Assembly (NCBI GenBank): GCA_003551435.1
Contig: PUMQ01000015.1
Location: 1 to 43,866, forward strand
Source: Candidatus Nealsoniibacteriota bacterium
GTDB lineage: Bacteria; Patescibacteriota; Minisyncoccia; Minisyncoccales; PWPS01
Direction of reading: 5' to 3'
Length of the DNA: 43,866 bases
Shown: positions 4,281 to 42,446 of the stretch, piece by piece
Layout: each line of letters begins with the position of its first letter
Numbering within the stretch: position 1 is the stretch's first letter
Notes under the pieces: generated by a model
What the model was told of the DNA's origin: nothing
Seen by the model: the letters and a program-made list of their open reading frames with translations, nothing else
Database searches by the model: none
Made by a program: the position numbers and the translations under genes

Positions 4281-4706
4281 TTAAAAGGTTTCTATTTTAC
4301 TTGAAATGTCGTCGAGACGGCCTCCTTTTTTGCTTGAAGGAGCCTTTTCCTCTTTTTCGCTTTCTTCTTCCTCTGTCGTTGTTTTCGTTTTTATTCTTTT
4401 AGGAATGGTTGTTTCCATGGGAGCTGTTTTTTTCTCCCAGATATACTCCCTTGAGGAGATACTAAAAAGAATCATTTTTTTTATATACTCGGAAAGCGGT
4501 TGCCCTGCTACTTGCAAAAAGGCAAGCGCTACTCCTCCTCCCCCGATCATTATCGCAAGGATGTAAAACAAAGGAGAAGTGCCTATTATAAAGTAAAGGA
4601 AAAGGACGACAAGACCCGCTGCTCCTATATAAAGAAGCTGGGAAAAGGTGGCCGGACCCAGTATTTTTGCTTTGTATTCTACGTGGCGCGGAACTTTATA
4701 ACGCAT
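4281..4706 (-). CDS. PrgI family protein
   Basis: MRYKVPRHVEYKAKILGPATFSQLLYIG... two TM helices, adjacent to VirB4. Confidence 0.8.
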   Translation of the reverse strand: MRYKVPRHVEYKAKILGPATFSQLLYIGAAGLVVLFLYFIIGTSPLFYILAIMIGGGGVALAFLQVAGQPLSEYIKKMILFSISSREYIWEKKTAPMETTIPKRIKTKTTTEEEESEKEEKAPSSKKGGRLDDISSKIETF

Positions 4707-4713
4707 TTTTTTA

Positions 4714-4779
4714 ACTTATGATCTACACCTTTCTTTATTACCGGTCATTGGTCATATGTCATCGGTCATTTGTCATTCA
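4714..4779 (-). repeat. Composite heptamer intergenic element, copy 1
   Basis: Minus strand: TGACAAATGACCGATGACATATGACCAATGACCGGTAATAAAGAAAGGTGTAGATCATAAG. Confidence 0.75.
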
Positions 4780-5195
4780 ATAGGTTCTCTGTAGACATCT
4801 TTAGCATCCTGTTTTGGCGGTTCTTCGGGAGGTTTTTCGGGCTTTTTCTCTTCTTTTTCTACTACTGGCTTTTCAGAGGATGTGCCGGGAATGCTGGAAA
4901 GAATAATCTCGTCTATTCCTTTGGCAATTTTTTCTGCCGTTTCGCTGTCAATATCCAAGCCTTCCTGGATAGTTAATTTTAAATTTTCCTTGGGAAGTTT
5001 TCCGAAAATAGCGTAGGTTGTCCGGAAAGCTACCCCTTCTACCTTTTCCCGGTCGGTGATCCTGTTTTCTATGCAGATACTGGCTATTTTTTGAGCTGTT
5101 TTTTCACTGAGCGCAAAAGCAATAAGTTCCTCGGAATAAGTTTTAAAAAAGCCGGGGTATTTTTCTTTTAATTTGGAAATGCTTTCTTTATTCAT
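4773..5195 (-). CDS. Small T4SS-locus protein with C-terminal DVYREPIE
   Basis: 140 aa ORF; shares tail with 6781..7209. Confidence 0.7.
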   Translation of the reverse strand: MNKESISKLKEKYPGFFKTYSEELIAFALSEKTAQKIASICIENRITDREKVEGVAFRTTYAIFGKLPKENLKLTIQEGLDIDSETAEKIAKGIDEIILSSIPGTSSEKPVVEKEEKKPEKPPEEPPKQDAKDVYREPIE

Positions 5196-10892: not shown

Positions 10893-10909
10893 AAATATTG
10901 ATCTATAAC

Positions 10910-10950
10910 TACCTTATCAACGGCCATTGGTCATGAGCCATTGGTCAAAT
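10910..10950 (-). repeat. Composite heptamer intergenic element, copy 2 (short, degenerate)
   Basis: Minus strand: TTGACCAATGGCTCATGACCAATGGCCGTTGATAAGG. Confidence 0.55.
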
Positions 10951-11776
10951 TTATCCACTCTTCCACACTTAAAGTTTCGGCTCTTCTTTGCGGATTGATA
11001 GATAGTTCTTTCATTCTATCTAGAACCGCTTGTGAACTTAATCTTATGTCTTTATCAGCTGTCTTGTCAAGCAAAGAAAGGTTTTTCCCAACCTGCTTTC
11101 TTGGGTGAGCAAATCCAGTTTTAACTATTTTAAAAAACCTTTCTCTGAATTTTTTGTTTTTTCGTTGATAATTAAGAACGATTCTCATTACAGCACTCTC
11201 CACACCGGGAGGAGGAAAGAAAGAGTTTTTAGAAACAAAAGAAACAATTTCCGGGACGCCGTAAAACTGTACCGAGACGGCAAGAAGGTTCATGTTTGGG
11301 GGTTTGGCAATTATTCTTTCTGCTACTTCTCTTTGGATTGTTAAAACAAGCTCTGCCGGAGGAGTGTCTTCTTCTAAAAATTTTCTAATAATGGGAGAGG
11401 TTATGTAATAGGGGACGTTTCCCACTATTTTGTATTTACATCTTCCGAGGTGGAACCTCGGAGAATAAGAGAGGATATCTTTATTTACTATTTTTACGTT
11501 AGAACGTTTTTTAAGGACTTCTTGTAAAATGGGAATGAGTTTTTTATCTTTTTCTATGGCGATTATTTTTTTTGCTCTCTTTGAGAGCTCTGTGGTTAGT
11601 GTTCCCGCTCCGGCGCCTATTTCAATAACGGTGTCTTTTTCCGACAGACTGGCGATACTGGTTATCTTCTCCAAAATTTTTTTGTCCACAAGAAAGTTTT
11701 GTCCCCACGACTTTCGGGGAATAAAATCATGCTTTAGAAAAACATTTTTCAGTGTTTTTACGTCTGTTAGATCCAT
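10931..11776 (-). CDS. rsmA: 16S rRNA (adenine1518/1519-N6)-dimethyltransferase RsmA/KsgA
   Basis: SWGQNFLVDKKILEKI, VIEIGAGAGTLT, NVPYYITSPI. Confidence 0.93.
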   Translation of the reverse strand: MDLTDVKTLKNVFLKHDFIPRKSWGQNFLVDKKILEKITSIASLSEKDTVIEIGAGAGTLTTELSKRAKKIIAIEKDKKLIPILQEVLKKRSNVKIVNKDILSYSPRFHLGRCKYKIVGNVPYYITSPIIRKFLEEDTPPAELVLTIQREVAERIIAKPPNMNLLAVSVQFYGVPEIVSFVSKNSFFPPPGVESAVMRIVLNYQRKNKKFRERFFKIVKTGFAHPRKQVGKNLSLLDKTADKDIRLSSQAVLDRMKELSINPQRRAETLSVEEWINLTNGS

Positions 11777-27603: not shown

Positions 27604-28158
27604 TTAAGTTTCTTCGTTATTTTTCTTTACAGCTTTTTTGCCTTTTTGAACTCTTGAGGGGGAAACGAGAAGAAATCTTCTGGTTTTTTCTTCCAGGTTT
27701 ACGAATTCGTCTGCCGCTTCTTTCAGCTTTAAAGATGCGGATCTTTCAAAGGCGATTACTTCTACTTTCTTTCCTCTGCTTTTTAAAAACTCTACCAGAG
27801 GAACGAAATCGCCGTCCCCGGTAACAAGAACCACAACATCCACTCCCGGAGCCATGCGAACGGCATCTATGGCTATTCCCACGTCCCAGTCGCCTTTCTT
27901 AAGGCCTCCATGAAACTCTTGCAGGTCTTTAACCCTTATCTCTATTCCCAAGTTGGTAAGCGCCTCGAAAAAGGATTTTTCTTCCCCGGTTTTTGTTTTT
28001 ATTACATAGGCGAAGGCGCGGATAAGAGTTCTTTTGCCTACGGCCGTTTCCACTACATTGCTAAAATTAACGCGTGCGTTGTACAAATTTTTTGCCGAGT
28101 GGTAAAGATTTTGTACGTCAAGAAAAATCGCTACGCGCTGTCCTTTATGCTTTATCAT
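27604..28158 (-). CDS. NYN-domain (LabA/DUF88-like) putative ribonuclease
   Basis: IFLDVQNLYHSAK, WDVGIAIDAVRM, VVLVTGDGDFVPLVEFLKSRGKKVEVIAF. Confidence 0.88.
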   Translation of the reverse strand: MIKHKGQRVAIFLDVQNLYHSAKNLYNARVNFSNVVETAVGKRTLIRAFAYVIKTKTGEEKSFFEALTNLGIEIRVKDLQEFHGGLKKGDWDVGIAIDAVRMAPGVDVVVLVTGDGDFVPLVEFLKSRGKKVEVIAFERSASLKLKEAADEFVNLEEKTRRFLLVSPSRVQKGKKAVKKNNEET

Positions 28159-28418
28159 TTATTTTGTTTTTTAAGGCCTATTTTGGGAAGAAGCTCTTTA
28201 TACCTCTTTTCGTCTTTCCTTTTAAGGTAATTGAGAAGCTTTTTCCTTTTATTGACCATACCGAGAAGGCCTCGCTTGGAATGAAGGTCTTTCGGGCTTT
28301 TTTTCAGGTGGGCAAACAGTCTCTCTATCTGTTTGGAGAGCAGAACAACTTGCGCCTCCGCACTGCCGGTATTTTTTTCTTCTTTTAACGCTTCCTGTTT
28401 CTCTTCTTTTGTTAACAT
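28155..28418 (-). CDS. rpsO: 30S ribosomal protein S15
   Basis: NTGSAEAQVVLLSKQIERLFAHLKKSPKDLHSKRGLLGMVNKRKKLLNYLKR. Confidence 0.95.
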   Translation of the reverse strand: MLTKEEKQEALKEEKNTGSAEAQVVLLSKQIERLFAHLKKSPKDLHSKRGLLGMVNKRKKLLNYLKRKDEKRYKELLPKIGLKKQNK

Positions 28419-28426
28419 AATTTTCT

Positions 28427-28604
28427 GACTTATGACTTATGACCTATGACTTATGACCTATGACTTATGACTTATGACCTATGACTTATGACTTATGACC
28501 TATGACTTATGACCTATGACTTATGACCTATGACTTATGACCTATGACTTATGACTTCTTTATTACCGGTTATTGGTCATTTGTCATTGGTCAATAGTCA
28601 ATTT
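28427..28604 (-). repeat. Composite heptamer intergenic element, copy 3, with an 18-unit 7-bp array
   Basis: 28427-28552 is 18 tandem units of gacttat/gacctat; then cttctttattaccggttattggtcatttgtcattggtcaatagtca. Confidence 0.9.
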
Positions 28605-28605
28605 G

Positions 28606-28678
28606 TGCCCCGCGTAGGGTTCGAACCTACGACCTTATCCTTAAGAGGGATCTGCTCTTCCAGCTGAGCTAGCGGGGC
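28606..28678 (-). tRNA. tRNA-Lys(CUU)
   Basis: GCCCCGC...CTCTTAA loop...GTAGGTTCGAACCCTACGCGGGGCA cloverleaf. Confidence 0.93.
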
Positions 28679-32454: not shown

Positions 32455-33651
32455 ATGGATATAAGAGAATTTACCTCGGCAATCTCTCAAATTGCAACAG
32501 AAAAAGAAATACCACAGGAAAAGGTGGTGGAGATTATCGAGCAGGCGGTGGCTACCGCTTACAAAAAAGAATACAGAGAAAAAGGGGAAGTTGTAAAAGC
32601 GAAAGTTGATCCTAAAACCGGAGAAGCTGAGTTTTGGCTGGTAAAAACAGTAGTAGATGAGACAACGGCCATTTTCCAGGAGGATGAGGAGGGGGACGAA
32701 GAGTTTACGGAGAGAAATGAAGAAGAGGAAGAGGGAAAGGTAAGATACAACCCCAAAAAACATATCACTCTCAAAGAGGCAAAAAAGATAAAAAAAGACG
32801 CTAAGTTAGGAGACGAGATAGAAACTCTTCTTGAAAAGAAGCAAGATTTCGGAAGAATAGCCGCTCAGACTGCAAAGCAGGTCATTCTTCAAAAAATAAA
32901 GGAAACTGAGAGAAATCTTGTTTTCAGCGAGTACAAAGACAAGGAAAACGAGGTGATCTCCGGAATTGTCCAGCGAGTGGAGGGGAAAAATGTCCTTATG
33001 GATATCGGAAAAATTCTCGGGATAATGCACAAGGAGGAACAGATTCCGGGAGAGATCTACCGCCCCGGACAAAGATACAAGGCTTACGTTTTGAGTGTGG
33101 AAGACAGTCCGAAAGGGCCGGCGGTGATGCTTTCTCGCGCTTTTCCGAAATTCGTTTCCAAGCTTTTTGAGTTGGAAGTGCCGGAGATTTCCGCCGGTAC
33201 GGTAGAGATAAAATCCATTGCCAGAGAGCCCGGTTCGAGGACCAAAATTGCCGTTCACTCTAAGGAAGAGGGAATAGATCCGGTGGGAACTGCCGTAGGA
33301 CAGCGAGGAACCAGGGTGGGAGCTATTATTTCGGAACTTGGAGGAGAGAAGATAGATATTGTAGAGTATCCGGAAAAACCTGAGGATTTTATAAAAAACG
33401 CTCTTGCTCCAGCAAAAGTTTCCGAGGTGGATATTAAGGAAAACAGAGCGGTAGTCACTGTTCCCGAAGACCAGCTTTCTCTTGCCATCGGAAGAGAAGG
33501 ACAGAACGTCCGTCTGGCGGCCAAGCTTACCGGATGGAGAATTGACGTTAAGGCCATCGGGAAAGATAAAATTGAAGAAACGGCGGAAGCCGAAGAAATT
33601 GACGAAAAGAATGAAGACGTGGAAGAAGAGCAAATTAAAAACGACCAATAA
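32455..33651 (+). CDS. nusA: Transcription termination/antitermination factor NusA
   Basis: NusA N-terminal, S1 and two KH domains (DPVGTAVGQRGTRVGAII; LAIGREGQNVRLAAKLTGWRIDV). Confidence 0.94.
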   Translation: MDIREFTSAISQIATEKEIPQEKVVEIIEQAVATAYKKEYREKGEVVKAKVDPKTGEAEFWLVKTVVDETTAIFQEDEEGDEEFTERNEEEEEGKVRYNPKKHITLKEAKKIKKDAKLGDEIETLLEKKQDFGRIAAQTAKQVILQKIKETERNLVFSEYKDKENEVISGIVQRVEGKNVLMDIGKILGIMHKEEQIPGEIYRPGQRYKAYVLSVEDSPKGPAVMLSRAFPKFVSKLFELEVPEISAGTVEIKSIAREPGSRTKIAVHSKEEGIDPVGTAVGQRGTRVGAIISELGGEKIDIVEYPEKPEDFIKNALAPAKVSEVDIKENRAVVTVPEDQLSLAIGREGQNVRLAAKLTGWRIDVKAIGKDKIEETAEAEEIDEKNEDVEEEQIKNDQ

Positions 33652-33720
33652 CAAATAACCAATGGCTAATGACCGGCAATAAAGAGAGTCATGGGTCATA
33701 AGTCATAGGTCATAAGTCAT
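33643..33720 (+). repeat. Composite heptamer intergenic element, copy 4
   Basis: GACCAATAACAAATAACCAATGGCTAATGACCGGCAATAAAGAGAGTCATGGGTCATAAGTCATAGGTCATAAGTCAT. Confidence 0.8.
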
Positions 33721-41465: not shown

Positions 41466-42314
41466 ATGCCGGAGTTACCCGAGGTTGAAACTACCGTTTC
41501 TTCGCTTAAAAACAAGGTCTTAAACAGGACCTTTGTTTGTGTATGGGCGGAAGAAAAGAGTACGGAACTGGAAAAAATAAAAGGCAAAAAAATTCGGGAC
41601 GTAAAGAGGTTTGGCAAAGGGATTTTTATCTCTCTTAGCAGTGGCGACACTCTTTTTGTACATCTTAAAATGACGGGGCATCTTTTATTGGGAAACTGGA
41701 AGTTGGTCAAAGACCCTTTGGACGGAAAAAAAATATGGAAAGCGGAAAACAAAACGATGAGAGAAAAAGTTAATGGATTTTTGCGATACGTTTTTTTTCT
41801 GGACAATGGGGAAAAGCTCGCGCTTTCCGACTTGAGAAAATTTGCCCGAGTATCTGTTTTTTCTAAAAAAGAGGCTGAAAATTACATAAAAAAACTCGGA
41901 CCTGATCCGCTCCTGATAGGCAAAAAAGAATTTAAAAAACTTTTTGCAAAAAAGAAAAAAGAGATAAAACCTCTTCTTATGGATCAAAACTTCATTGCCG
42001 GAATTGGAAATATTTATGCCTCGGAAATTCTTTTTAAGACGGGTACAGATCCGCGGAAAAAAGCAAGCAATCTAACCGATAAAGAACTGGAAAAAATATA
42101 TCATGCGACAAAAATTTTGCTTAAAAAAGGGATCAGGCTCAAAGGAGATAGTACCAGTGACTACCGTCTTTTGGACGGAAAGAAAGGAGGATACCAAAAT
42201 CATCACCTCGTTTACAAAAGACAAGGGCTTTCTTGTTTTAATTGTAAAAAAAAGATAGAAAGAATTAAGGTCGGAGGAAGAGGAACATATTTCTGTCCCC
42301 AATGCCAAAGATGA
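41466..42314 (+). CDS. mutM: Formamidopyrimidine-DNA glycosylase
   Basis: MPELPEVETT, LLMDQNFIAGIGNIYASEILF, C-terminal zinc finger CFNCKKKIERIKVGGRGTYFCPQCQR. Confidence 0.94.
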   Translation: MPELPEVETTVSSLKNKVLNRTFVCVWAEEKSTELEKIKGKKIRDVKRFGKGIFISLSSGDTLFVHLKMTGHLLLGNWKLVKDPLDGKKIWKAENKTMREKVNGFLRYVFFLDNGEKLALSDLRKFARVSVFSKKEAENYIKKLGPDPLLIGKKEFKKLFAKKKKEIKPLLMDQNFIAGIGNIYASEILFKTGTDPRKKASNLTDKELEKIYHATKILLKKGIRLKGDSTSDYRLLDGKKGGYQNHHLVYKRQGLSCFNCKKKIERIKVGGRGTYFCPQCQR

Positions 42315-42446
42315 CCAATGACCAATGACTAATGACAAATGACAATTTAATTAATGGTCAAATGTCAAATGTTAAATGTCGTTATAGTCATAAGTTATAG
42401 GTCATAAGTTATAAGTCATAGGTCATAAGTCATAGGTCATAGGTCA
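42312..42446 (+). repeat. Composite heptamer intergenic element, copy 5
   Basis: TGACCAATGACCAATGACTAATGACAAATGACAATTTAATTAATGGTCAAATGTCAAATG...GTCATAAGTTATAGGTCATAAGTTATAAGTCATAGGTCATAAGTCATAGGTCATAGGTC. Confidence 0.85.

Follow-up and report, generated by a model that had tools for sequence, protein, structure and literature searches.

The genome of this Candidatus Nealsoniibacteriota bacterium carries a family of intergenic elements that is a two-armed, core-bearing, stop-anchored and lineage-specific new variant of the heptameric intergenic repeats of bacteria. Read along the transcribed strand, the non-coding element consists of (TGACNAA)n, a short shared core and then (GTCATAR)n, the two arms being inverted. 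We favour, at a probability of roughly 0.6, a lineage-specific dispersed heptameric repeat that grew by slippage and is tolerated between cistrons where its neighbours stay translatable. The original prediction had described five copies with one common architecture, intergenic between co-directional genes, in the window, namely the whole 43,866-nucleotide stretch analysed here (contig C15). All five (4779->4714, 10950->10910, 28604->28427, 33643-33720 and 42312-42446) are present at these positions and on the corresponding strands, and a genome census bore out the architecture. The window contains 39 heptad triplets of TGACNNATGACNNATGAC with at most two mismatches, compared to 0.01 expected, and 31 GTCATAR triplets, compared to 0 expected.

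Table 1. Arms and cores of the five window copies and their genic context.
Copy	Part	Positions	Strand	Context
1	Left arm (TGACNNA)5	4741..4775	-	Its first TGA ends the 140-aa ORF upstream (4773-5195)
1	Core ACCGGTAATAAAGA	4732..4745	-	
1	Right arm, degenerate (GGTGTAGATCATAAGTT)	4714..4731	-	Precedes PrgI-family gene (4281-4706); poor folding
2	Left arm	10924..10947	-	Overlaps 3' end of RrnaAD-family gene (10931-11776)
2	B-type core GGCCGTTGATAAGGTAG	10909..10925	-	
2	Right arm, vestigial AGTTATAGATCA	10899..10910	-	
3	Left arm, 4 heptads	28573..28600	-	Immediately 3' of tRNA-Lys (28605-28678)
3	Core ACCGGTAATAAAGA	28557..28570	-	
3	Right arm, ~18 GTCATAA/GTCATAG heptads	28426..28556	-	Precedes rpsO (28155-28418)
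4	Left arm	33643..33671	+	nusA stop TAA (gene end 33651) inside a heptad
4	Core ACCGGCAATAAAGA	33672..33685	+	
4	Right arm	33686..33720	+	Final GTCAT abuts clpP start codon (33721)
5	Left arm (TGACNAA)5	42312..42346	+	mutM/fpg ends on the first TGA, at its canonical stop position
5	Long core, nested TGTCAAA heptads	42347..42385	+	
5	Right arm, ~9 GTCATAR heptads	42386..42446	+	Precedes holA (42451)

The genes flanking the window copies have no common function and are housekeeping or unrelated (rsmA-like RrnaAD, rpsO, nusA-clpP, mutM-holA and PrgI-family). The genome comprises 599,488 bases in 21 contigs and is scored 100% complete. The census of heptad chains, which covered all but ~6.7 kb of the genome in stretches, gave 30 chains that make up 21 elements, all of them intergenic or overlapping gene ends only. 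Genome-wide, heptad triplets matched 155 times, compared to none for the reversed control. The arms have 1-19 units each; copy number varies by locus across the 21 loci, and arm length differs between copies by whole heptads.

The core, predicted to be conserved, is exact in copies 1, 3 and 4 and also present outside the window, as ACCGGYAATAAAGA occurs at four places in the genome, these three and C10:2914. Elsewhere it is a degenerate family (roughly TRACCGNTRATAARGAAGTCATAR) alignable in about 11-14 of the 21 elements, and is less conserved than claimed. Copy 2, correctly described as having a degenerate core, is a member of this family, whereas copy 5, thought to lack a core, has a different and longer one. 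This long core with its nested TGTCAAA heptad array recurs at C4:8598 and C8:53709, and in a degenerate or weak form at C6:49582. These common cores indicate that the copies are related by descent and spread by copying, and did not arise by independent slippage at every locus. In the right arms of elements, that of copy 3 included, 14- and 21-mer higher-order repeats point to slippage.

All 21 elements lie in co-directional gaps, tRNA genes included, compared to 214 of the 296 background gaps of at least 40 bp (72%; 0.723^21 = 0.001), with genes taken from longest-ORF calls made for this analysis and not from curated annotation. Arrays of any period-7 unit occupy 31/229 co-directional, 3/36 convergent and 1/61 divergent gaps (co-directional versus divergent, p = 0.005). 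Along transcription, the TGACNAA arm stands upstream and the GTCATAR arm downstream in 19 of the 21 elements (p = 2e-4). The claim that all copies are oriented with transcription is borne out by the five window copies, but two elements, C13:3174 (upstream of dnaK) and C16:8684, run against it; a family scattered at random in orientation and gene context was not what we observed. Among the 11 informative cases, in which the stop codon lies at or ahead of the first heptad, the left-arm heptads share the phase of the upstream stop codon in seven (1/7 expected; p = 2e-4, with all such p-values overstating independence because the copies are related to one another). This suggests that the upstream gene's stop codon is the point where arrays nucleate or are joined. 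The mutM stop has a constant position across genomes; the sisters use TAA or TAG there, and in this genome it coincides with the array's first TGA. In addition, the homologue of the 140-aa ORF upstream of copy 1 stops at the identical place in sister G001, with TAA.

The left heptads (n = 91) follow TGAC[A/C/T]AA, and position 6 is A in 77 of them. On the sense strand the right heptads (n = 115) follow TA[A/G]GTCA, and 98 of them have A at the corresponding position. The arms are complementary apart from this recurrent A-A mismatch, by which sense-strand stop codons are kept in both. A sense-strand stop is found in 87/91 left and 93/115 right units; antisense, only 12/91 left units have one. 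In the natural orientation, every one of the 21 elements has stops in all three frames, and start codons running into the next gene number 21, compared to 91 if the elements are flipped. Stop density is 12.5 per 100 nt in the elements versus 5.9 in other co-directional gaps. We infer that the natural orientation is kinder to translation of the neighbouring genes. At the level of single units, a stop-codon constraint was not seen in two other genomes (Fisher p = 0.67), and the G-to-A versus A-to-G ratio did not differ between the arms. Moreover, single arms of the TTGACNT dialect in sister G007 are split 13:13 with no orientation bias, and its right arm has no sense stops, so the argument from protection of translation is not general; given this split and the null unit-level tests, such protection is something that we infer.

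Comparison with relatives places the family in this lineage. None of the family's 15 other members, of which seven belong to the same genus, has the composite pattern, and a class-wide sample of 387 genomes contains it in 3. Syntenic gaps that hold an array here have a median of 65-69 bp, compared to 17 bp in G007 and 32 bp in G001, and the orthologous short gaps compared in the sisters contain no arrays. The element at C19:29617 spans 65 bp where G007 has a 1-bp gap, and the gap at C19:12216 is 69 bp where a sister has a stop-start overlap. In side-by-side sequences these empty sites are clean, with the stop and start codons intact on either side. The family is lineage-specific. Conservation of the loci across species was rejected, since the heptad gaps of this genome and G007 do not coincide (Fisher p = 1). 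The nusA-clpP gap and the gap upstream of hisS do have arrays in both genomes, in differing dialects.

The marks of bacterial intergenic heptameric simple-sequence repeats are all found here: a tandem 7-bp unit, many intergenic loci and an excess of period 7, with 14 period-7 and 9 period-14 intergenic arrays outside the family and at most three of any other period. Cyanobacterial STRR heptamer repeats are likewise tandem intergenic heptanucleotides. The literal repeat strings returned no match in a literature search; the prediction that the element falls outside described repeat families nevertheless fails, as intergenic heptameric repeats have already been described (PMC4692102, PMC4679880). 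Many bacteria have an excess of heptameric repeats for which there is no accepted reason (PMC4692102). The GGGAATC repeats of Xanthomonas and GGGGA(T/C)T repeats of Nostoc resemble the element in being 7-bp, intergenic, mostly co-directional and variable in length, and X. campestris has ~70 convergent inverted pairs among its GGGAATC repeats; however, these heptamers are G-rich and form G-quadruplexes, neither a shared core nor a stop-codon phase is reported for them, and most GGGAATC repeats lie beside the same genes in two Xanthomonas species (PMC4692102). TAACTGA direct repeats, with a patchy distribution in Beggiatoaceae, Cyanobacteria and Bacteroidetes, resemble the element in that their 7-bp units bear stops, are intergenic and may overlap the upstream gene end, and relatives have shorter gaps free of arrays (PMC4679880). 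These arrays share the orientation of the downstream start codon, beside which they often end; unlike the element, they are direct repeats, with one inverted case in a Beggiatoaceae genome and no two-armed layout around a core (PMC4679880).

On the favoured reading, recent dispersal would have placed copies at operon junctions between genes that nearly abut in the sisters. The arms would then grow and shrink by replication slippage, as proposed for other bacterial heptameric repeats. Copies would persist mainly at cistron junctions, in the orientation that offers three-frame stops and few starts ahead of the next gene, so that both neighbours remain translatable. An imperfect intercistronic hairpin could form, and any regulatory effect would probably be weak or incidental.

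Related genomes use other heptads. Most of the remaining intergenic tandem repeats in the own genome are further period-7 units (AAAGCGA/GCTTTTA, AATTTCA/TTTAAAA, TTGACCT/TGTCAAA and GTAGGTC). The dominant families of G007 are also two-armed, with units TTGACNT/GTCAAAT (87 matches vs 6 here) and AATTTTC/GAAAATT (29 vs 5), and sister G001 has zero period-7 arrays in 295 kb. Examples of the two-armed families of G007 lie at L236:1828-1860, L250:11694-11733 and L246:10403-10436, and some of these families are joined to a TGTCATTCTGAGCGAAGCGAAGAATC-like repeat that is itself dispersed. A second heptad family of the own genome is two-armed as well, with AAAGCGA/AAAGCTA on the left and GCTTTTA/GCTTTTCG on the right, at C6:54880-55100 (L185; 16 units), C4:9532-9565 and C13:8890-8923.

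Several other intergenic features were noted. A block with CGCTTCGCGTG and ATTTGAAATTTAAA units is tandemly duplicated at ~60 bp spacing at C19:36421-36511 (L196). Palindromes of GCGAAGGTC/GACCTTCGC at C8:14967, C8:31465, C3:3660 and C16:32566 form another dispersed hairpin family and are perhaps terminators. Upstream of dnaK, sisters G003, G001 and G007 (L222, L224, L225) have a short hairpin, GGCAAATGAC-GAAAATATAA-GTCATTGGCC in G001 and GACAAATAAT-GAAAATATAA-GTTATTTGTC in G007, which is possibly a heat-shock operator or RNA element; the own reversed-polarity element C13:3174-3254 may have grown from it.

A small number of distant Parcubacteria-like genomes (L095-L099 and the genomes they belong to) have two-armed arrays resembling TGACNAA/GTCATAA, among them Liptonbacteria, Paceibacter and Yanofskybacteria. 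With co-directional flanks, polarity in these other genomes is 25 sense versus 5 antisense. The genome of Yanofskybacteria RIFCSPHIGHO2_01_FULL_39_8b (L098; L156-L167) has dense CGACTAA/GTCGTAA arrays besides TGACTAA/GTCATAA, nearly all sense. In G248 (L149:1476-1533) and G597 (L138:1488-1562), two-armed elements with differing cores lie directly upstream of an rsmH-like start (M-x-H-x-P-V-L, recognised by eye from the translation). A Lentisphaerae match (L094) was dropped as chance-like, without heptad arrays.

A more speculative proposal, which we regard as conceivable though somewhat unlikely, is that the arrays are intergenic DNA that propagates itself, in dialects particular to each species. 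Some process, such as a polymerase that switches templates or an enzyme not yet recognised, would prime on operon-junction stop codons, copy two-armed 7-bp arrays to many junctions and change the unit between sister species.

Sense orientation and the asymmetry at heptad position 6 would fit a functional RNA as well. Such an intercistronic module is unlikely in our judgement; its hairpin would separate cistrons, making the end of the upstream mRNA more stable or shielding the next gene's translation, and the sense heptads would be selected for this. It draws on the sense polarity (19/21 here, 25/30 in other genomes), the raised stop density, the hairpins in the relatives' orthologous dnaK-dnaJ gap and a fold stabler than dinucleotide shuffles (mean z -3.4); yet the antisense strand folds better still (-4.6), copies 1 and 2 with their weak right arms fold poorly (z -0.6 and -2.2), and copy 1, C9:2049 and C9:13543 show barely any folding. 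The variable arm lengths, the unseen unit-level stop constraint, the sisters' element-free orthologous gaps and the absence of locus coincidence with G007 also argue against it. Of the long hairpin originally predicted, the capacity of the arms to pair stands, but not a sense hairpin as the evident purpose; in these folding models such a hairpin could form, but it does not appear optimised.

The cores in common, the short inverted ends (ATGAC...GTCAT, which are the repeat units themselves) and the empty sites in the sisters would also suit a miniature mobile element, MITE or REP-like, with heptad arrays as its inverted ends and a transposase acting in trans. BrickBuilt, a MITE of Porphyromonas gingivalis, is a precedent with a tandem array within inverted ends, ~19 intergenic copies and species specificity, but has a 23-bp unit, a separate leader and tail, and a single array in place of two inverted arms (PMC4596501). 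We consider this origin improbable: the ends differ in steps of a whole heptad, a variability that ordinary transposons would not tolerate, and no clear or consistent target duplication was seen at the sisters' empty sites compared by eye. A Y1/RAYT transposase (PF01797), the sole dispersal-enzyme family searched, was not found in the genome. Plasmids, phages and IMG/VR gave no match, although the low-complexity filter of BLAST may mask some, and a phage or plasmid origin was rejected on this basis. REP/RAYT repeats are similarly short, palindromic, intergenic and in many copies; identity with them was rejected, as the genome has no Y1 transposase and the element consists of heptad arrays that vary in length by whole heptads and end in heptads, not of a fixed-length hairpin with a tetranucleotide foot.

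That the element belongs to a known family of intrinsic terminators, promoters or riboregulators, as the inverted repeat, the intergenic position and the similarity of TGACNA to a -35 box might suggest, is highly improbable and largely refuted: no G+C-rich stem with a T run was found on the transcribed strand at copies 3-5 (copies 1 and 2 were judged by eye), the best sigma-70 promoter scores equal those of control gaps, with strong promoter-like pairs in 0/21 elements versus 34/180 control gaps, and no copy matched an Rfam covariance model at gathering score, where only tRNAs matched.

Altogether, one genus offers a natural comparison between a TGACNAA/GTCATAR genome, a TTGACNT/GTCAAAT and AATTTTC/GAAAATT genome, and one sampled genome without arrays, together with clean empty sites whose neighbouring genes are intact. 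Stop-codon phase and the repeated sense polarity provide concrete handles on how such arrays originate and what limits them.
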